DNA of 64,000 nt, taken from assembly GCA_016185145.1 (NCBI GenBank), contig JACPOB010000045.1, positions 1 to 64,000 of the forward strand. The letters run 5' to 3'. The notes below the pieces were generated by a model. It made no database searches. It was not told the origin of the DNA and worked only from the letters and a program-made list of their open reading frames with translations. The DNA is from Rhodospirillales bacterium (GTDB taxonomy: Bacteria; Pseudomonadota; Alphaproteobacteria; Reyranellales; Reyranellaceae). Below, piece by piece: positions 1,516 to 9,569 of this stretch. Position numbers and translations under genes: made by a program. The first letter of the stretch is position 1, and each line of letters begins with the position of its first letter.

Positions 1516-1878
1516 CTAGCTGTTCCAAGGCGGCTTCCCCACCGTGGGCACAAATCGATAGTGGCAGGAGTTGATTGAGTTGCTGAGTTCGTAGTCACCA
1601 TTGCCGTGACCGATGAAATTCATTATTCCCCCTGAGGGGTCCTTGTAGCTCGCAGTAATCTTGCCGTCGCTTCTGACAGGCTCGGAAAACAGCTTCCGGG
1701 CATAATTGACGCCAAGTGTCAGCACGCCGTTAGAAACGTCCACCGTGTAGGTTTGGCCCCATCCGGAGCAGGCCTGCACCGACTTCTCCGGGATTAATTC
1801 TGTGCGATATGTCGTGCTCTCTGCATGAGCCTGGGTGGCAAGCACCCCCATCACTCCAGCAATCGTCATGTAGCGCAT
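1516..1878 (-). CDS. secreted small protein fused in frame to the cyclase (possible internal start)
   Basis: Codon 611 of the cyclase frame is an ATG (1878-1876) preceded by GGAGGATACTCG, a good Shine-Dalgarno at normal spacing. The following 120 residues begin with a typical signal peptide ending AHA before EST, then a beta-rich domain with two cysteines (QACSGW, NSCHYRFVP) whose layout echoes the neighbouring secreted family. Free paralogs end in TPKT or similar followed by a stop; here TPQT is followed directly by GGYS and this start. It is therefore probably an independent gene whose upstream neighbour lost its stop codon, or a fusion that keeps an internal initiation site. Which product is made cannot be decided from sequence. 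Confidence 0.6.
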   Translation of the reverse strand: MRYMTIAGVMGVLATQAHAESTTYRTELIPEKSVQACSGWGQTYTVDVSNGVLTLGVNYARKLFSEPVRSDGKITASYKDPSGGIMNFIGHGNGDYELSNSINSCHYRFVPTVGKPPWNS

Positions 1879-3708
1879 CGAGTATCCTCCCGTCTGGGGC
1901 GTAAAAACATACCGGCAAGGGGTAATGGAACTGGCCACAAGGAAGGGGCGGGCTCCGTTGCCCGGAGCGAACGTTACGTAGAACTCTCTGTTCTTGTCGT
2001 CCTTGCCGACAACTCTTCCAGAGCCATCAGGCTGCAACCCCTTCAAATCGACAGTGAATGAACTCTTCGTCGATCGGCTCGTATAGGTGAGCGTGTTCCC
2101 CCTTATGTCGACCTGCCAGTTGGCCGACAGTTGTGATCCCCCAATCCCGGCGGCACAGGCGGGATTTTCCGTCGTGGGGAAGGCAGCCCACGACGCGTGT
2201 GCCGCGCTGGAGATGTGAGAAGCAGCGGGCTTCTTCTGTTCGTCGTGGCTCGCCGTCGTGGCCTCGGTTTCCTGCAGCAGGGCCTGCTGCTGGGCTCTTG
2301 TCAGGAAGCCGGTCGCCGGCAGATGGCGTGCGTTCTGCCAGCGCGCGATCATCTCGCGCGAGCGCGGGCCGAACACGCCGTCGTGGCCCCTTGTGTTGAA
2401 GCCGAGCGACGTCAGGGCGGCTTGCAGGCGCCGGCGGTCGGCCGGTTCCAGGCGCAACCGCTGTTCCGCCGCCTCGGCTTCCTCGTTGGGCTTGGCCCTG
2501 CCGGCCGCTGTCTTGTTCGCCGCGGCCTTGTTCGCAGCCGCAAGCGCCTCTGTTTCGGCCTGCTCCCGCCGCTCGGTGGCCAGGACCAGCGCCTGGTCGG
2601 CCCGGCGCTTGGCCTCGGCGTCCGCCGCCGCCTTCCTCGCCGCTTGCTCTTCGGCTTGGAGCAGGGCGGCGGCTTCCGCTTCAGCACTGCGCTGGGCGGC
2701 TTGCTCGGTCGCGCGCTCGGCCATCACCGCCGCCGGATCGCCGCCTGCGTCCTTGGCGTTGCGTCGCGCGTCGATGTCCGCCTTCAACTGCGCCAATTCA
2801 CGTTCGGCCTGCTGGCGCGCCTGCCGTGCACTCGCGAGCTCCAGATCTGCCTGTCGCTTGGCCTCGGCTTCCGCTTCGGCCCTCTGTTGCGCCTGCCGCT
2901 CCAGCCGGCGTTTCTCCGCCGCCAGCGCGTCGGCCTTGCGCCGCTCGGTCAGCGCCTGTTCGAGCTGCTCGGCCGACAAGCTCTGCGCCGCTGTGCTGAC
3001 GGATGGCGCCGGATTTGGCGAGAAGGCCAGATATCCGCTGCCGGCAAGCAGCAGCGCTGTGGCCGCGACCGTACCCCACAGCATCGGCCGCCGGATCGCG
3101 ATATCCGCTCGCCGCATCCGGCTTGCCGCGCGGACCGGTCGACGCGACGCGCTCTCGCGAGGGAGCACATGATAGATGTGCAGGGCATTCCTGATGTTCT
3201 TGGCGTGATGCCGGCCGCCGTCGACGAAGACGCAGCTCGCCTGCAGATGCGTGGCGTCGCGTATGGCTGGCGACGCCGCAATCCCGCCCGGCTCGGCCAT
3301 GAGCTGGATGCGGGCGGCGACATTGACGACGTCGCCGAATATGGTCTCCGTTTCGTCGACGATGACCTCGCCCAGATGCAGCCCGATGCGGAACATCAGC
3401 CGCTGTTCCTCGTCGAGCGCTTCGTTGAAGCGTGCCATCCGCTCCTGGACGTCGATCGCCGCCGCGACCGCCGCCATCGCCGAGCCGAATTCGGCCAGCA
3501 CGGAGTCGGCCACGATGTTCACGATCCGGCCGCCCGCGGCATCGACGGCGGACTGCCATACCTCCGCGCGTACCGACTTCAGATGGCTGACCGTGCGGTC
3601 TTCCCCACCTTGCATCAATCGGACGTAGCCGGTGAGGTCGGCCTGAAGGATGGCCGAGAGCCGGCGCGGGCGGGTTGGTTGGCGGTCCTCAGCCATCGGC
3701 GGAGACAT
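1516..3708 (-). CDS. membrane class III nucleotidyl cyclase with periplasmic coiled coil, peptidoglycan-binding domain and C-terminal secreted-family domain
   Basis: This is a 730-aa frame. Residues 15-185 are a class III cyclase domain. Metal ligands D24 and D68 and the transition-state Asn129/Arg133 are present, but the adenine-specifying Lys and Asp positions are Asn64 and Thr122. A single transmembrane helix (about 209-229) is followed by an Ala/Glu/Arg-rich coiled coil (about 245-415). A peptidoglycan-binding domain (about 421-478, DGVFGPRSREMIARWQ) and a domain at 504-606 homologous to the secreted proteins encoded at 3948-6655 follow. The catalytic part should be cytosolic and the rest periplasmic, so it looks like a wall-anchored receptor cyclase. 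The frame then runs without a stop into a second signal-peptide protein (see 1516-1878), so the native protein may end near residue 606. Confidence 0.8.
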   Translation of the reverse strand: MSPPMAEDRQPTRPRRLSAILQADLTGYVRLMQGGEDRTVSHLKSVRAEVWQSAVDAAGGRIVNIVADSVLAEFGSAMAAVAAAIDVQERMARFNEALDEEQRLMFRIGLHLGEVIVDETETIFGDVVNVAARIQLMAEPGGIAASPAIRDATHLQASCVFVDGGRHHAKNIRNALHIYHVLPRESASRRPVRAASRMRRADIAIRRPMLWGTVAATALLLAGSGYLAFSPNPAPSVSTAAQSLSAEQLEQALTERRKADALAAEKRRLERQAQQRAEAEAEAKRQADLELASARQARQQAERELAQLKADIDARRNAKDAGGDPAAVMAERATEQAAQRSAEAEAAALLQAEEQAARKAAADAEAKRRADQALVLATERREQAETEALAAANKAAANKTAAGRAKPNEEAEAAEQRLRLEPADRRRLQAALTSLGFNTRGHDGVFGPRSREMIARWQNARHLPATGFLTRAQQQALLQETEATTASHDEQKKPAASHISSAAHASWAAFPTTENPACAAGIGGSQLSANWQVDIRGNTLTYTSRSTKSSFTVDLKGLQPDGSGRVVGKDDKNREFYVTFAPGNGARPFLVASSITPCRYVFTPQTGGYSMRYMTIAGVMGVLATQAHAESTTYRTELIPEKSVQACSGWGQTYTVDVSNGVLTLGVNYARKLFSEPVRSDGKITASYKDPSGGIMNFIGHGNGDYELSNSINSCHYRFVPTVGKPPWNS

Positions 3709-3947
3709 CGTTCTCGTGACACGCCGAGCATGGCCGCGAGCTCCGCGTGGCGGATGCGCAGAGCCGGAAATACTGCAGCCGGAGCAGGTCCTGTCGCGTC
3801 ATGTCAGCGCCACCGTAGACACCTTGCCCGTCGATAGTCTGGCTACTTGCGGCATCCGGCACAAGACCGGCAGGGGGAAGTGTCCTAGAGCCTTGGCGGC
3901 ATCCGCTCGCGCCGTTGGATGCGGTGGGGGTGGCCCGCCACGAGAAA

Positions 3948-4334
3948 TCACTCTGCCTTGGGCGTAAAAACTGACCTGCAAGGGGTAATGGAATTGGTCA
4001 CCTGGAAGGGGCGGGCCCCGCTGCCCGGATCGAACGTTACGTAGAACTCTCTGTTCTTCTCGTCTCTGCCGACGACTCTTCCAGAACCATCGGGCTGTAG
4101 CGCGTTCAAATCGACAGTGTATGAACTCTTCGTCGTCGTTTGCCTCGTAAAGGTGAGCGTGTCCCCCTTTATGTCGACTTGCCAGTCAGTCGGCCCTGGC
4201 GGCCCGCCAAATTGAGTGGCGCAGGCGGGATTCTCCAGTGTGGCAACGGCAATCCACGTCGCGTCTGCCGCGCTGGAGACGTGAGAGGCACCCACAAGCC
4301 CGATCAAGGTCGTGAGAAACAGTCCCAACCTCAT
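3948..4334 (-). CDS. secreted small protein, cyclase-sensor-like family (copy 1)
   Basis: This 128-aa protein starts at the ATG preceded by GGGAGGCGATAAA. Residues 1-22 (MRLGLFLTTLIGLVG...) are a signal peptide. The mature part carries the family signature: W near the start, a Cys, WQVDIKGDTLTFT, LQPDGSGRVVG, NREFYVTFDPGSGARPF, then CRSVFTPKAE at the end. About 100 residues match residues 504-606 of the upstream cyclase. It lies 17 bp downstream of the next family member (4352-4759) on the same strand, likely one operon. I do not recognise the family; a small beta-rich periplasmic or extracellular domain with one likely disulfide is inferred. Confidence 0.7.
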   Translation of the reverse strand: MRLGLFLTTLIGLVGASHVSSAADATWIAVATLENPACATQFGGPPGPTDWQVDIKGDTLTFTRQTTTKSSYTVDLNALQPDGSGRVVGRDEKNREFYVTFDPGSGARPFQVTNSITPCRSVFTPKAE

Positions 4335-4351
4335 TTTATCGCCTCCCATTG

Positions 4352-4759
4352 CTATGTCGTGGGCGTATAGACGCGCCGGCAAGCCTTGAGGCGATAGGTC
4401 ATATGGAATGTGCGGGCTCCGCTGCCCGGATCGAACGTCAGGTAGAACTCTCTGTTGTTCTTGTCTGTGCCGACAACCTTTCCGGAACCATCAGGCTGCA
4501 ACCCCTTCAAATCGACGGTGAATGAGTGGTTCGGAATTGCGCTCGGACTCGTAAAAGTGAGCGTGTTCCCCTTGATGTCGACCTGCCCACGGGCAGGGGC
4601 GGTCCATTCCGGCCCGGTACTCACCGTGCCGCCGCCGCATGACGTCGACATGCCATTCTCCAGGGCGCCAACGGCAGCCCACGTCGCGTCTGCCGCGCTG
4701 GAGATGTGAGAAACACCCGCCAGCCCGATCAACGTCGTGAGAAACAGTCCCAACCTCAT
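4352..4759 (-). CDS. secreted small protein, cyclase-sensor-like family (copy 2)
   Basis: This 135-aa protein has the same leader (MRLGLFLTTLIGLAG) and the SD AAGGAGCGACAAA before the ATG. A frame extending upstream to 5053 only overlaps the hydrolase gene and is not used. The mature domain differs from copy 1 by a Gly-rich Cys loop (STSCGGGTVSTGPEW) and FTSPSAIPNHSFTVDL, features shared with the plus-strand copy at 5865. The C-terminus is CRRVYTPTT. It is followed 17 bp later by copy 1. Function is unknown; paralogy with the cyclase's periplasmic domain is visible directly. Confidence 0.7.
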   Translation of the reverse strand: MRLGLFLTTLIGLAGVSHISSAADATWAAVGALENGMSTSCGGGTVSTGPEWTAPARGQVDIKGNTLTFTSPSAIPNHSFTVDLKGLQPDGSGKVVGTDKNNREFYLTFDPGSGARTFHMTYRLKACRRVYTPTT

Positions 4760-4830
4760 TTTGTCGCTCCTTGGTTGAAGTATCCTATCACGACACTCGG
4801 AATGTGCTGAATCCGTCGATGATTTTGCAC

Positions 4831-5652
4831 TTACTTCGCCTTGAGCCGCGCATCGAGGAACGCCTTCGTCATCACGAAAGAATCGGCCGCCGCTTCGGGA
4901 TTGCCGCCGATCATGTGGCCGGAACTGGTGAGCACGGGCAAGGTGCCAAGATCGAAGCTGTGCAGCGCACCGGGATAGACCTTGATGGTGGGCGGACGGG
5001 TGTCGTTGGCTCTCGCCGCAACCGTCTTGAGGCAGAGGTCGGCCGGAGTCCAAGTGTCGTTCCTGCCGGTCAGGATCAGCACGTCAGTGACATACGGTCC
5101 CACGATCGCCCTGCCCGAACATCCGGGGTAATAGGCGACTCCCGCCTGAAACGGCTGGCCGCCGCGGTCGCGAGGAATTTCTTCGCCGATCGCGGCCCAA
5201 AGGGTCGACGAGCCGCCGTGAGAGAAGCCAATGATCCCGATCCGGTCAGCCTGGATGTTGGGCAAGGTGCGCAGGTAAGTCGCGGCGTTGTGGGCGTCCT
5301 GCGCACGCACACGAGTCGGGATGGAGTCGACGCTGTCGCAGACGCTGCGTTGATTACGTGGCCCGAAACTGTCGACGATCACCGCGGCGTAGCCCCAGCC
5401 GACCAGGCGAGTTGCCCAGGTCCGGGTGTTGTCGGTGATGCCGCTGCAACTATGCATGACCAGCACGGCCGGGAAGGGGCCGTTCCCCGGTGGGAGATAG
5501 AGTTGCAGACGAGCGCTGCTGTTTGGCCCACCGACCGACTTCGCATCGTAGGTCAGCGGCAGTCGCTCGGACAGCAGGCTTGCGCAATGCGCCAGGATGA
5601 CCGGCAACACCAGTGCGCGCGCTGCCTTGGTCAATGACGTTGCGTATCGCAT
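4831..5652 (-). CDS. dienelactone-hydrolase family protein, exported
   Basis: This 273-aa alpha/beta hydrolase starts at the ATG that gives an N-terminal hydrophobic signal (MRYATSLTKAARALVLPVIL). The family features are present: the nucleophile elbow GFSHGG (Ser in place of the classical Cys), the acid in TGRNDTWTPAD and the His in GALHSFD. A close relative is encoded at 33265-34053. It sits in the middle of the secreted-protein array, between divergently oriented copies, and is separated from copy 2 by 71 bp. A hydrolase for a small ester or lactone in the periplasm is inferred; the substrate is unknown. Confidence 0.8.
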   Translation of the reverse strand: MRYATSLTKAARALVLPVILAHCASLLSERLPLTYDAKSVGGPNSSARLQLYLPPGNGPFPAVLVMHSCSGITDNTRTWATRLVGWGYAAVIVDSFGPRNQRSVCDSVDSIPTRVRAQDAHNAATYLRTLPNIQADRIGIIGFSHGGSSTLWAAIGEEIPRDRGGQPFQAGVAYYPGCSGRAIVGPYVTDVLILTGRNDTWTPADLCLKTVAARANDTRPPTIKVYPGALHSFDLGTLPVLTSSGHMIGGNPEAAADSFVMTKAFLDARLKAK

Positions 5653-5781
5653 GGAGTCTCGGCGCCGTGTCGCTTGACGTGACGCTAGCACCCCGGGGGC
5701 GCGCGTTGTGTAACCTGGGTCACACAAATCGGCCGCCTTTTTGAAGGGGGAGCCGGGAGGTAGCAATAGACGGCACTTCTA

Positions 5782-5867
5782 CGCCGTGCTCCACTTGGGA
5801 GGTATCCGCTCGCCGCTCGACGCGGTGCGGTTGGCTATCGTGGCGGAAAACGACGGGGGAAGAGATG
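5782..5867 (+). repeat. upstream repeat unit D1 (shared leader/promoter segment)
   Basis: About 80 bp immediately upstream of the 5865 gene match the segment upstream of the 6749 gene (6665-6751), including the core GCTATCGTGGCGGAAAAC and a GGGG-AAGAG ribosome-binding region. The similarity ends just inside the coding start. This indicates a duplicated promoter/leader that would place both genes under the same control. A weaker match (GGCGGCATCCGCTCGC) occurs near 3893-3940. Confidence 0.6.
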
Positions 5868-6269
5868 AAGTTGGGACTTCTTCTCGCGACATTGATCGGG
5901 CTAGCGAGTGCTTCTCAAATCTCCAGCACGGCAGACGCGACATGGGCGGCCGTTGGCAAACTGGAGGATGGCACTTCGCCCTACTGCGGCGGCGGTACGA
6001 TTCCCATGCCGGAATGGGTCGGGCGGGCTGACGGGCGGGTCGACATCAAGGGGAACACGCTCACTTTTACGAGTCCGAGCGCAATTCCGAACCATTCATT
6101 CACTGTCGATTTGAAGTCGTTGCAGCCTGATGGTTCTGGAACAGTTGCCGGCAAGGACACCAAGAACCGAACGTTCTACATAACGTTCGATCCGGGCAGC
6201 GGAGCCCGCCCGTTCCATATGACCTATTCCTATGGCGCTTGCCGACGTGTCTATACGCCCAAGACGTAG
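5865..6269 (+). CDS. secreted small protein, cyclase-sensor-like family (copy 3)
   Basis: This 134-aa protein starts at the ATG after GGGGGAAGAG. Its leader is MKLGLLLATLIGLASAS. The mature sequence is closest to copy 2 (PYCGGGTIPMPEW, FTSPSAIPNHSFTVDLKSLQPDG, CRRVYTPKT). It is oriented away from copies 1 and 2, and followed 23 bp later by copy 4, likely one transcript driven from the repeated leader upstream. The family is unknown; export and a Cys pair are visible. Confidence 0.7.
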   Translation: MKLGLLLATLIGLASASQISSTADATWAAVGKLEDGTSPYCGGGTIPMPEWVGRADGRVDIKGNTLTFTSPSAIPNHSFTVDLKSLQPDGSGTVAGKDTKNRTFYITFDPGSGARPFHMTYSYGACRRVYTPKT

Positions 6270-6292
6270 TGACATGGCGATGGGAGGAAGAG

Positions 6293-6655
6293 ATGAGGTT
6301 GGGTCTGTTTCTCACGACACTGATCGGGCTAGCGGGTGCAGCTCACATCGCCAGCGCGGCAGACGCATCGTGGCTTGCCGTTCCCGAGAGCACTCCGGGG
6401 TACTGCGCCATGAGCAGTGCGTCTTGGCAGGTCGACATAAAGGGGCACACGCTTACTTTTACGAACCGATCGAAGAACTATTCACTCACTGTCGATTTGA
6501 AGTCGTTGCAGCCTGATGGTTCTGGAAAGGTTGTCGGCAAAGACGACAAGAACAGGGAGTTCTACGTAACGTTCGATCCGGGCAGCGGAGCTCGCCCATT
6601 CTATCTGACCGGTTCCGACCATCCTTGCAGGTATGTTTTTACGCCCAAGACATAG
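6293..6655 (+). CDS. secreted small protein, cyclase-sensor-like family (copy 4)
   Basis: This 120-aa protein has its start chosen at the ATG after GGGAGGAAGAG, giving the leader MRLGLFLTTLIGLAGAA. The domain is the shortest of the set but nearly identical to the cyclase domain over LQPDGSGKVVGKDDKNREFYVTF and CRYVFTPK. The near identity of these blocks among copies suggests recent duplication or gene conversion. It is followed by the second repeated leader (6665-6751). Confidence 0.7.
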   Translation: MRLGLFLTTLIGLAGAAHIASAADASWLAVPESTPGYCAMSSASWQVDIKGHTLTFTNRSKNYSLTVDLKSLQPDGSGKVVGKDDKNREFYVTFDPGSGARPFYLTGSDHPCRYVFTPKT

Positions 6656-6664
6656 CGCGGCCCG

Positions 6665-6751
6665 CGCCGTGCTCCATTTGGGCGGCATACGCTCGCCGCT
6701 TGACGCGGTGCGTGCGGCTATCGTGGCGGAAAACAAGGGGAGGAAGAGATG
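6665..6751 (+). repeat. upstream repeat unit D2 (shared leader/promoter segment)
   Basis: Second copy of the segment at 5782-5867, with the same GGCTATCGTGGCGGAAAAC core and a stronger SD (GGGGAGGAAGAG) before the ATG at 6749. It precedes the amber-interrupted gene, so that gene was probably under the same control as copies 3 and 4. Confidence 0.6.
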
Positions 6752-7180
6752 AAGTCCAAACTGTTTCTCACGACATTGATCGGGCTAGCGACTGCTGCGG
6801 CTATCACCGTCGCCATACAAGCTTACGCCATGTCGTCGTCGGTCGCCGATTTCCCGGAGTTCACAGCCTGCCCGCTGGCTAAGGGCACGTAGTGGGCCAG
6901 TGGCAAGGAGGCCGAGAAATATGCCGCCGGCCACAATATGCTTTTGGTCGTCAAGGAGGGCCGCCTGCTTTACGCCGCCGACAGGAGCAGAGGTTCGATG
7001 AACGAGCCGAAAGAGGTGCGGTTCGTCCAGCGCGTTTCCGGCGAGATCCAGATCAAGACTCTCAGCCTTACGTCGTACAACCTTCGCAAGACCGGCAACA
7101 TATTCACTGGCATCCAGGATGATGGCGGTACGGGCGGCATGCCCACCATCACCAACGTCGAGTTTGTCTGCGGCGGGTAG
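6749..7180 (+). pseudogene. secreted small protein gene interrupted by an in-frame TAG
   Basis: The leader (MKSKLFLTTLIGLATAA...) matches the array's leaders. After 47 codons (ending ACPLAKGT) a TAG occurs at 6890-6892. The same frame then continues as WASGKEAEKYAAGHN to a stop at 7178-7180, giving 143 codons in total. The downstream part (residues VEGRLLYAADRSRG-like through NVEFVCGG) has coding character and ends with a Cys near the C-terminus as in the family layout, but lacks the LQPDGSG block. It is either a nonsense-inactivated gene, a sequencing error, or suppressed. A restart at 6938 would lack the signal peptide. Confidence 0.6.
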
Positions 7181-7319: not shown

Positions 7320-7754
7320 ATGGCCACTCTTCAAGCGCCGAAGCTCGCCAAGCTCGCCGAGGCGACCCGCGTCGAGTTCGGGCCGCTCGCCTTCTATCAT
7401 CCGCTGATCGCCGACGGCGACACGCCGGTGCGCACCGGCATCCAGACCTCGGCGCCCGGCTACGTCGCGCCGATGCACTGGCATCCCTATGTCGAGCTGC
7501 TGTTCATCATCGACGGCGAGGCCGAGGTCTGGCTGCAGGGCGAGGAAGACAAGCCCTCGCGGCTGGGGCCAGGCGACTGCGTGGCGCTGCCCGCCGACAT
7601 CCCACACAGCTTCCGGACCGTGGGTGACCAGCCGATGCGGCTGCTCGGCATCCATGCCAATCCCGATCGTGTGGTCACCTATCTCGATCGCAGGAGCGAC
7701 GCCTCGGGCTATCCCGTGCTCGACGAAAGATTGGAACCCACCGGGGGGTGTTGA
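7320..7754 (+). CDS. cupin domain protein
   Basis: This 144-aa single-domain cupin has motif 1 MHWHPYVELLFIIDGEAEV and motif 2 GDCVALPADIPHSFRTVG, with the His/His/Glu and His metal ligands in place. The SD GAAGGG precedes the ATG. Such proteins are small-molecule-binding or isomerase/dioxygenase-like enzymes, and the substrate cannot be inferred. It ends 24 bp before the GTG start of the second cyclase gene, so the two are likely co-transcribed. Confidence 0.8.
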   Translation: MATLQAPKLAKLAEATRVEFGPLAFYHPLIADGDTPVRTGIQTSAPGYVAPMHWHPYVELLFIIDGEAEVWLQGEEDKPSRLGPGDCVALPADIPHSFRTVGDQPMRLLGIHANPDRVVTYLDRRSDASGYPVLDERLEPTGGC

Positions 7755-7778: not shown

Positions 7779-9569
7779 GTGGCCCACGAACAGCGCAGGC
7801 TTGCTGCTATCGTCTCGATCGATGTGGTTGGCTATTCGCGCCTGATGGGTCGGAACGAAAGCGGCACCCACGCGCTCGTCAAGACACACCTCGCCGAACG
7901 GGTGATGCCCTGTTTCCGCCGGCACGGCGGCCGCCTGGTCAAATCGACCGGTGACGGGGTGCTTGCCGAGTTCGGCAGTGCCGTCGGCGCCCTAAGCGCT
8001 CTCATCGAACTGCAGCAAGAGATGGGCCGGGCCAACCGCGGGCAGCCGGAGGCCGATCGGATCGTCTTTCGCGCCGGCGTCCACCTTGGCGAAGTGATCG
8101 TCGAGCACGACGATATCTACGGAGACGCGGTGAACATTGCGGCGCGTCTCGAGGGCGAGGCCCCGCCGGGCGGCATCCTGGCCTCTCGCGCCGTGCGCGA
8201 GGCGGTAAGCGGTCGGATCAAGGCCGAGCTCCACGCCCTGGGGGAACTCTCCCTCAAGAACATCGAGCGCCCCATCCGGACCTTTCGCGTGGCATGGAAG
8301 GAAGCCGACTGGCCGACCGGGACAGGTGCGCCATCGGACCTGTCGAGCTTGCAGACCGGTCCTTCCCCGCGTTCCGCACTTGACGACACGCCGTCCATCG
8401 CGGTGCTTCCGTTCCGCAATCTGAGCGGCGATCCCGGGCGGCAATACTTCGCCGACGGAGTGGTTGAGGACGTCGTCACCACGCTCTCGCGCATTCCGAA
8501 CCTTGTCGTGATCCCCCGCAATTCCTCCTACTTGTACAAGGACCGTTCGGTCGACGTCCGGCAGGTCGGCAGCGAGCTCGGGGCGAGCTACGTTCTTGAC
8601 GGCAGCGTCCGCATCGCAGGAAGCCGGCTGCGCATCGGCTGCGCGCTGCTCGATGCGGCCAGGGGAAGGCAGATCTGGGCGGAACGCTACGATGGCGCCA
8701 TGGCGGACGTCTTCGATCTGCAGGACAAGATCACGTCGAGCATCGTCGCCACCATCGGGTCCAAGGTGCTGAGCACTGAGATAGCGCGCGCACAGGCGAA
8801 GCCGACGGGCAATTTGAGCGCCTATGATCTTTATCTCCGGGCAATCGCGGGAATCAATGGTCGCACGGAGAGTTCGCTCGGCCAGGCGGTGGAGCTGCTC
8901 GAGCGTGCCGTTGCTGCCGATCGACTGTTCTCGTCCGCCTACGGCTACCTGGCCTGTGCTCATTGGATTCGCCGGGACAACGAATGGGGTCCCTTCGAAG
9001 AGGCGACGGCACGGGGACTTGCCGCGGCGAAGACGGCAATCGAGCTGGGCAAGGACGATCCCATCGCGTTGTACCTGGGAGGTTACGGCATCGCCTTTCT
9101 GGGTGGCCGGTTCCACGACGGCCTGGCGCACATCGAATGCGCCCTGGCGCTCAACCCCAATCAGCTGGGGGCCTGGCGACTGGGCGGCAGGGTATGCTGG
9201 ATGATGGGCGACCACGAAAAGTCCATTCGATACTATGAACGGTGCCTGCAGCTCAGCCCGCAGGACGAATTGGCAATCGAGGCACTATCCGGCATTGGGG
9301 TCCCGCACTTTTTTCTCGGCCACTACGACGAGGCCCTGCACTGGGCAGAACGCACGCTCGGGGTGCAGCCGTCGCACGGTCAGGGCCTTGGGTTGAAGAT
9401 ATTGGCATTGGCGATGGCGGGCTCCCGCCCCGACGAGCTGCGATACGCCGTTCAGCAACTGCCCCAACGTCCGACGGTAGCCTGGGTCATGGAACGGGTG
9501 CCCTTGTCCCGGTCCTGTGATCGCGAACTGATGGAAATGGCTCTGCGCAAGGCAGGGTTTCCGGATTAG
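7779..9569 (+). CDS. class III adenylate cyclase with TolB-like and TPR region
   Basis: This 596-aa protein has its GTG start supported by GAGGGG upstream. Residues 5-180 form a soluble class III cyclase domain with metal Asp15 and Asp59, the adenine-specifying Lys55 and Asp112, and the Asn119/Arg123 pair, so adenylate cyclase activity is expected. Residues about 205-330 match the TolB-N-like segment seen in this family (SIAVLPFRNLSGDPGRQYFADG), and the rest is TPR-like helices (about 345-590). No membrane helix is seen. It differs from the receptor-type cyclase at 1516-3708, which lacks the adenine-specifying residues, and together they flank the secreted-protein array. Confidence 0.88.
   Translation: MAHEQRRLAAIVSIDVVGYSRLMGRNESGTHALVKTHLAERVMPCFRRHGGRLVKSTGDGVLAEFGSAVGALSALIELQQEMGRANRGQPEADRIVFRAGVHLGEVIVEHDDIYGDAVNIAARLEGEAPPGGILASRAVREAVSGRIKAELHALGELSLKNIERPIRTFRVAWKEADWPTGTGAPSDLSSLQTGPSPRSALDDTPSIAVLPFRNLSGDPGRQYFADGVVEDVVTTLSRIPNLVVIPRNSSYLYKDRSVDVRQVGSELGASYVLDGSVRIAGSRLRIGCALLDAARGRQIWAERYDGAMADVFDLQDKITSSIVATIGSKVLSTEIARAQAKPTGNLSAYDLYLRAIAGINGRTESSLGQAVELLERAVAADRLFSSAYGYLACAHWIRRDNEWGPFEEATARGLAAAKTAIELGKDDPIALYLGGYGIAFLGGRFHDGLAHIECALALNPNQLGAWRLGGRVCWMMGDHEKSIRYYERCLQLSPQDELAIEALSGIGVPHFFLGHYDEALHWAERTLGVQPSHGQGLGLKILALAMAGSRPDELRYAVQQLPQRPTVAWVMERVPLSRSCDRELMEMALRKAGFPD

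Follow-up and report, generated by a model that had tools for sequence, protein, structure and literature searches.

Probable capture of dispersing secreted barrel proteins as the outer part of a putative peptidoglycan-anchored class III cyclase in Reyranella

The locus described here raises the question of why a receptor-type cyclase should carry, toward its C terminus, a domain that four neighboring genes encode as free secreted proteins. The stretch analyzed, hereafter the window, comprises 64,000 nucleotides (contig JACPOB010000045.1 of assembly GCA_016185145.1, which has an estimated contamination of 7.6%) from a member of the genus Reyranella (Alphaproteobacteria), and it contains both the cyclase receptor ORF (1516..3708, minus strand, 730 aa) and the four free genes. 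SD1 (3948..4334, 128 aa) and SD2 (4352..4759, 135 aa) lie on the minus strand, and the same-strand row SD2, SD1, cyclase is found in both the window genome and R. soli. In both species, a gene for a dienelactone-hydrolase-family protein (4831..5652, minus strand in the window; PF01738, E 4e-16) stands upstream of SD2. SD3 (5865..6269, 134 aa) and SD4 (6293..6655, 120 aa) are on the plus strand. Three of the free SD ORFs begin further upstream in a mechanical ORF list, and the coordinates given here start at the leader ATG chosen in a first-pass annotation of the window. That annotation passed over an interrupted gene (6749..7180, plus strand) in which an SD-type leader precedes a different body with an in-frame stop. 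The number of promoters and terminators called between 1450 and 7300 was not above that in shuffled sequence. A defence role as a Pycsar-type anti-phage cyclase system was rejected because the cyclase, SD1 to SD3, tail2 (see below), the dienelactone hydrolase-family protein and a second cyclase matched no PADLOC model at E 0.01; SD4 gave one weak, unrelated match (E 0.0011).

The first-pass annotation had aligned residues 504-606 of the cyclase with the four free proteins. All five copies do align, but the fused copy, SD5 (1891..2229, minus strand), covers roughly residues 494-606, taking in the last part of what was once a signal peptide (PAASHISSAAHASW). Three sequence blocks had been assigned to every copy; LQPDGSG is present in 5/5, while NREFYVTF is found in 3/5 (NREFYLTF in SD2 and NRTFYITF in SD3) and GARPF in 4/5 (GARTF in SD2). 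The Cys near each end and the common leader were confirmed: every SD copy contains exactly two Cys, while the four free copies share a leader that is signal-peptide-like as judged from sequence and hydropathy. The domain copies are 60-68% identical to SD1, with 45 invariant columns, and are 76-92% identical as DNA repeats. A five-row SD profile searched against the 7.77-Mb genome recovered all five copies (E 6e-61 to 3e-72) and had no further match at E <= 0.001. The first-pass annotation did not recognize the domain, and none of the four free SD proteins matched Pfam or NCBIfam above cut-off. A Pfam scan of 27 SD rows and 13 tail2 rows likewise gave nothing above the curated cut-off (best E 0.008), and NCBIfam covers tail2 only as a portion of the whole cyclase. 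SD5 clusters with SD1 in the tree (support 89/92). Between the window genome and R. soli, dN/dS was 0.18 for SD1, 0.28 for SD2 and 0.36 for SD5 (112 codons), the last with both Cys kept in both species.

The receptor-type layout proposed for the ORF was borne out. In order, and all on the minus strand, it encodes a class III cyclase homology domain (3154..3666, residues about 15-185; PF00211 E 1.4e-5, 3mr7 E 2.6e-33), a single transmembrane segment (3028..3084, residues 209-227, by Kyte-Doolittle), an Ala/Glu/Arg-rich stalk (2464..2991, coiled-coil-like by eye), a PG_binding_1 domain (2278..2442, residues 423-477, E 9.8e-10), SD5 and tail2. The cyclase domain clears the curated Pfam cut-off (25.2 versus 21.9 bits), as does PG_binding_1 (38.9 versus 23 bits), for which peptidoglycan binding itself is predicted. 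The ortholog in R. soli (strain NBRC 108950; 717 aa) is 88% identical with an identical domain order, and dN/dS of the cyclase domain between the two species was 0.23. The catalytic residues D24, D68, N129 and R133 are retained, of which we take D24 and D68 to be the two metal Asp of class III cyclases. N129 and R133 fall at the transition-state Asn and Arg positions (PMC4215837; see also PMC1262709). The ATP-specifying pair of Lys and Asp (K101 and D157 of Ma1120) is not kept, the aligned residues being N64 and T122, so the domain does not qualify as an adenylyl cyclase by these residues; close cyclase paralogs also have N at the position equivalent to N64. Judged from its sequence, the ORF probably makes a signaling nucleotide, and the residues at the substrate positions leave room for a cyclase domain of low activity or one with a different nucleotide product.

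The end of the ORF, tail2 (1516..1878, minus strand, residues 611-730), is a second secreted protein, fused in frame, that has kept a signal peptide and a start of its own. The first-pass annotation had overlooked this RBS, ATG and signal peptide. An RBS-like GGAGG (1886..1890, minus strand) lies 7 nt before the ATG (1876-1878), and the motif, its spacing, the ATG and the signal peptide are present inside the ORF in both fusion-bearing species. Free 120-aa tail2 genes that are 83-89% identical to the fused one occur in four genomes (G000:C147, G004, G006 and G076), and the RBS-to-ATG stretch preceding the G076 gene is near-identical to that inside the cyclase ORF. No clean empty site was found for the G076 gene; in G014, the sequences on its two sides match loci on different contigs. 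Profile comparison with hhalign identified SD and tail2 as remote relatives (probability 97.2%, E 4.3e-11). Between the two fused tail2 copies, of which that of R. soli is about nine residues shorter at its end, dN/dS was 1.1-1.2 (1.2 for the mature parts; 0.56-1.69 over 15 pairs). This fast evolution suggests that the C-terminal part of the cyclase may be little constrained. Because of the signal peptide inside it, the polypeptide could be cleaved or inserted into the membrane a second time.

An eight-stranded meander was predicted in each of SD5 and tail2, with pLDDT of 86-93 in the SD5 core and only 50-82 per block in tail2. The SD fold is predicted to be an eight-stranded barrel. VIA returned weak matches to small eight-stranded barrels of lipocalin-like type, namely MoaF (4q51, Z 6.6), nitrophorin (5m6j, Z 5.8), an fHbp complex (5o14_B, Z 5.7) and nitrobindin (3wje, Z 5.1); every Z was below 8, at most 6.6, and identity was 2-11%. 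Sequence searches of the PDB with the SD and tail2 profiles gave no convincing match (best E 0.85 and 0.24). The top Foldseek rows (sliding clamps, TM 0.16) were dismissed as not credible.

Relatives of the receptor within the genus end in other domains. Three Reyranella paralogs (G000:C140, G014:C37 and G012:C151) have the same order of cyclase, transmembrane segment, stalk, PG_binding_1 and beta domains and are 71-73% identical to the fused cyclase over residues 1-484; the one that was scanned, G000:C140, has the same Pfam domains. These paralogs terminate in two 'W-R-G-T-Y-x-C' domains, where the fused cyclase has SD5 and tail2 instead. No link between the paralogs' domains and SD or tail2 was found by hhalign (probability 0.1% to SD, with a weak three-row profile), and a model of them was discarded (3 rows, pLDDT 30). 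Two Reyranella Ser/Thr kinases (L099 and L100) are 46-50% identical to the fused cyclase in the transmembrane segment, the stalk and the wall-binding region, but have a kinase where the cyclase stands and different C-terminal domains (Pkinase and PG_binding_1 in L100; layout read by eye in L099). CHASE2 receptor cyclases carry their sensor on the N-terminal side of the cyclase, and we know of no peptidoglycan binding and no free sensor paralogs among them. That sensor domain differs from SD. The CHASE2 cyclases of Sinorhizobium meliloti are likewise class III enzymes with a named receptor domain (PMC13001267). Literature searches found no class III adenylyl cyclase receptor with a peptidoglycan-binding domain and, judged from titles and abstract starts, no title on the SD domain. 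The paper found to join Reyranella with adenylate cyclase concerns coral microbiomes.

SD matches were found only in Reyranella, in 23/65 genomes, and cyclase-fused SD was found at one locus in 2/65, the window genome and R. soli (both soil bacteria), leaving 21/23 SD-bearing genomes without a fused cyclase. Some SD copies are cut by contig ends and incompletely readable (G004:C99, G032:C111, G074:C366 and also G030:C101); the genomes that contain them yielded no protein closely related to the fused cyclase. The copies of SD and tail2 are mostly single genes in unrelated surroundings, and most loci have in common only the gene with no more than some 100 nt of flanking sequence. In 31 other SD/tail2 loci, there was no excess of nearby cyclases (1 observed versus 1.69 expected). 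The first-pass annotation had interpreted free plus fused copies as a tuned system and had named a lack of co-occurrence with cyclases elsewhere as evidence against it, which is largely what these counts show: fused and free copies occur together in one lineage, short of a conserved system of receptor and soluble sensor paralogs. Given these single genes in unrelated surroundings, both the array and the fusion seem to be side effects of a family that disperses. Five genomes share the SD1/SD2 locus, two with the fused cyclase and three without, and the cyclase may have been gained by the two species or lost by the three. SD2 is intact in 5/5, whereas SD1 is intact in 2/2 genomes with the fused cyclase and 0/3 without, with a stop at codon 41 (G014), a stop at codon 51 (G020) or the gene absent (G076). 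By eye, G014 retains a stretch resembling the SD1-cyclase spacer of the window. The SD5-SD1 dS (0.19-0.35) overlaps or exceeds that between SD1 orthologs (0.15-0.22).

We favor, at a probability of roughly 0.6, the explanation that SD and tail2 belong to a dispersing secreted-barrel family and that a peptidoglycan-anchored cyclase carries in-frame SD1-like and tail2 genes as its outer part. The signal-peptide remnant before SD5 and the complete start region of tail2, from RBS through ATG to signal peptide, point from free to fused. Capture is also favored by free tail2 genes elsewhere, paralogs that end differently, kinases that share the membrane-to-wall region and retention of the fusion in R. 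soli. Counting against it are the altered N64/T122, fast tail2 evolution, modest confidence of the tail2 model, Z below 8, the fusion being in two genomes and the contamination of the assembly. At the level of sequence, the anatomy, the homologies, the origin of SD5 and tail2 from genes, the purifying selection on SD5 and the dispersal are established. This is a clear swap of the sensor part of a receptor, yet it is not proof of a new signaling system. SD and tail2 form two branches of one Reyranella family, whose small, secreted, predicted beta-barrel proteins have two conserved Cys each and have spread through the genus mostly as single genes. An SD1-like gene and then a tail2 gene lie in frame where the closest paralogs have other C-terminal domains. 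What we infer beyond this concerns sensing and the transfer of the signal, the ligand, the nucleotide made, a disulphide and the topology. The peptidoglycan-binding domain would anchor the outer part to the wall, where the SD5 barrel would bind a small ligand or a periplasmic partner; the stalk would relay the change across the single transmembrane segment to a cyclase dimer. Most free SD proteins would have an independent periplasmic job, although SD1 may share its ligand with the receptor.

Other readings give the same parts different roles. The internal RBS and start may also yield tail2 as a separate secreted protein beside the long cyclase, a doubtful but possible outcome that agrees with the complete start region in both species and its near-identity to that of the free G076 gene; this RBS may be a leftover of the fusion, seen in two species only, and the near-neutral dN/dS and shortened R. 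soli end of tail2 argue against such a product. Should the C-terminal fusions do nothing, the cyclase would work, if at all, via its other parts. Rarity (2/65 genomes), near-neutral evolution of tail2, altered substrate residues and the ease with which dispersed copies could insert by chance fit such an accident, which purifying selection on SD5, its conserved Cys and a frame still open at an SD5 dS of about 0.2 nevertheless render rather unlikely.

The proposal of the first-pass annotation, that free SD proteins tune the cyclase by competing with the anchored SD5 or by bringing it ligand, would make SD1, the nearest relative of SD5, the main partner, and it draws on the conserved gene row, the clustering of SD5 with SD1, the low dN/dS of SD1 and its survival only beside the fused cyclase. 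That pattern comes from five related genomes, where 2/2 versus 0/3 could be chance, and together with the 21/23 genomes lacking a fused cyclase and the absence of nearby cyclases in excess, it leaves tuning unlikely. A combined version, in which dispersing secreted barrels constitute a ready-made supply of sensor domains, the cyclase captured SD5 from its neighbor SD1, SD1 was retained only alongside the fused receptor and acts as its soluble partner, sharing or presenting the ligand, and the start of tail2 lets one gene make a receptor and a secreted protein, seems distinctly improbable.

Ancient families are the usual basis for inferring how bacterial receptors acquire sensor domains. Here, donor genes, fusion scars (the signal-peptide remnant and the internal RBS) and cyclase-free versions of the locus are visible in close relatives. 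If SD1 is the partner of the fused receptor, the locus would offer a simple, testable case of a receptor whose own sensor domain also exists as a soluble copy. Class III cyclases are numerous in Reyranella (a median of 25 per genome), and exchanges of sensor domains may therefore be common throughout the genus.

At the beginning of contig C187 (genome of 7.77 Mb; completeness, 92.3; contamination, 7.64), a 730-aa class III cyclase (3708-1516, minus strand) lies beside four free small secreted proteins, SD1 (4334-3948) and SD2 (4759-4352) on the minus strand and SD3 (5865-6269) and SD4 (6293-6655) on the plus strand. The cyclase consists, in order, of the class III cyclase domain, a single transmembrane segment (residues 209 to 227), an Ala/Glu/Arg-rich stalk, the peptidoglycan-binding domain PG_binding_1 (423 to 477), and SD5 (494 to 606), a fused copy of the domain found in the free proteins. 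The first-pass annotation described this array correctly but overlooked tail2 (residues 611 to 730), a second secreted protein fused in frame after SD5. Another gene of the window (6749-7180) has an SD-type leader on a different body and is interrupted by an in-frame stop. The second part of this gene matches positions 5915-6154 of the Reyranella soli stretch L029 at 97.5% identity.

SD5 opens with PAASHISSAAHASW, which aligns with the last residues of the leader in the free copies (in SD1, for example, GASHVSSAADATW). SD5 thus retains the equivalent of the free-leader end, and therefore the free gene preceded the fusion. Past SD5, the open frame crosses GGAGG, seven bases, an ATG, and a signal peptide before entering tail2. 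Free tail2 genes of 120 aa (83 to 89% identity) are found in G000 (contig C147), G076, G004, and G006, and their DNA match starts 12 to 15 nt upstream of the ATG. R. soli has the identical layout, in frame, in a 717-aa protein (88% identity). By hhalign, SD and tail2 have related profiles (97.2%; E value of 4.3e-11), and locus L114 of R. soli encodes a free secreted protein in which a tail2-like domain is followed by an SD-like domain (E value of 8e-5 for the SD part). We consider the anatomy and origin of the cyclase-SD5-tail2 fusion to be well supported.

Among 65 Reyranella genomes, the nearest full-length relatives of the cyclase (G000:C140, 73%; G014:C37, 72%; G012:C151, 71%) carry C-terminal domains other than SD5/tail2, and the C-terminal ends of remoter relatives (45 to 47%) differ again. 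The transmembrane segment, stalk, and wall-binding region are common to cyclases and Ser/Thr kinases (L099, 1048-4305, plus strand; L100, 2794-5217, minus strand), and therefore this outer module moves between both. In a set of loci chosen for similarity, 33 ORFs carry a related cyclase domain, and 22 of these terminate in an FHA-like stretch, read by eye. A tail2-like domain also terminates a single-pass, proline-rich protein (L093, 7598-8542, plus strand, E value of 1e-11; L101, 374-1243, minus strand, E value of 3e-12) that matched no Pfam family and that we read as TonB-like. In both loci it is followed by a broken free copy of the C-terminal domain of a paralogous cyclase, and in L093 by a DLH-like remnant as well.

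SD matches, some partial or remote, were found in 23/65 Reyranella genomes, cyclase-fused SD in 2/65, and tail2 with its remote relatives in 10/65. Across 385 genomes sampled evenly from the class, SD matches were confined to 1 of 276 genera (best 10 candidates per genome scored) and matches to tail2 or its remote relatives to 2 (best 12 candidates scored), the one outside Reyranella covering 50 positions (E value of 9e-4). In a pairwise comparison of 24 loci, 20 with SD (the window among them) and 4 with free tail2, most had the gene alone in common, with unrelated surroundings. The exceptions were a locus-sharing group (the window, R. soli, G014, G020, and G076) and a few pairs with an additional common stretch, the longest being 1,220 nt (G084-G062) and 1,248 nt (G004-G067). 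Among the matches listed, DNA identity of SD and tail2 genes between loci reached 96%, and the ends mostly lay no more than about 25 nt from the gene, extending in some pairs to about 105 nt upstream. Repeat-driven rearrangement would leave the same pattern as dispersal of SD and tail2 genes; the G076 tail2 gene (L133, 7005-7364) lies at the junction of two regions found on different contigs in G014.

That free SD copies tune the receptor, as had been proposed, is only hinted at by SD1. SD2 is intact in all five locus-sharing genomes, while SD1 is intact in two, both having the cyclase. SD1 has a stop at codon 51 in G020 and codon 41 in G014, and because these differ, the two losses look independent; G076 lacks SD1, its sole SD match being SD2, with the next gene about 20 bases further. 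This co-retention may be due to chance, the five genomes being related and one being an 81%-complete MAG. Against tuning, other loci show no excess of cyclases. A neighbor survey of 29 SD loci (every SD place found in the genus) and 4 free tail2 loci, 1.7 to 20 kb each and leaving out remote tail2 relatives, found cyclase ORFs in three: the window, R. soli, and G023. With the two fused loci excluded, 1 cyclase was seen in 31 loci versus 1.69 expected from cyclase density, a value that is if anything too low since densities are known only as at least 43 in seven genomes (class III cyclase domains per Reyranella genome, 7 to at least 43; median of 25; 65 genomes). In G023 (L032), a free SD gene (7344-7748, minus strand) divergently adjoins a different cyclase (7858-9486, plus strand), which ends in DUF4189. 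Between the window and R. soli, dN/dS was 0.23 for the cyclase domain, 0.38 for the transmembrane segment and stalk, 0.62 for the PG-binding domain, 0.36 for SD5, and 1.2 for mature tail2; SD1 and SD2 gave 0.18 and 0.28.

A predicted model of residues 482 to 730 (32 rows; mean pLDDT of 71, pTM of 0.47) was most confident in the SD5 core (blocks 51 to 120; pLDDT of 86 to 93, versus 50 to 82 in tail2), with eight strands predicted in each domain. The top VIA-align rows were small barrels, with Z at most 6.6, under the level showing kinship. A sensing role for SD5 can reasonably be inferred. Aligned with 3mr7 and Ma1120, the cyclase retains D24, D68, N129, and R133, and N64 and T122 occupy the places of the ATP-specifying Lys and Asp; in Ma1120, according to PMC4215837, K101 and D157 specify ATP. 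The window encodes a second cyclase (7779-9569; cyclase domain and TPR) adjoining a cupin gene; around the cupin gene of R. soli (stretch L029), no second cyclase was detected. The second cyclase of the window has K at the first substrate position and, by eye, D at the second.
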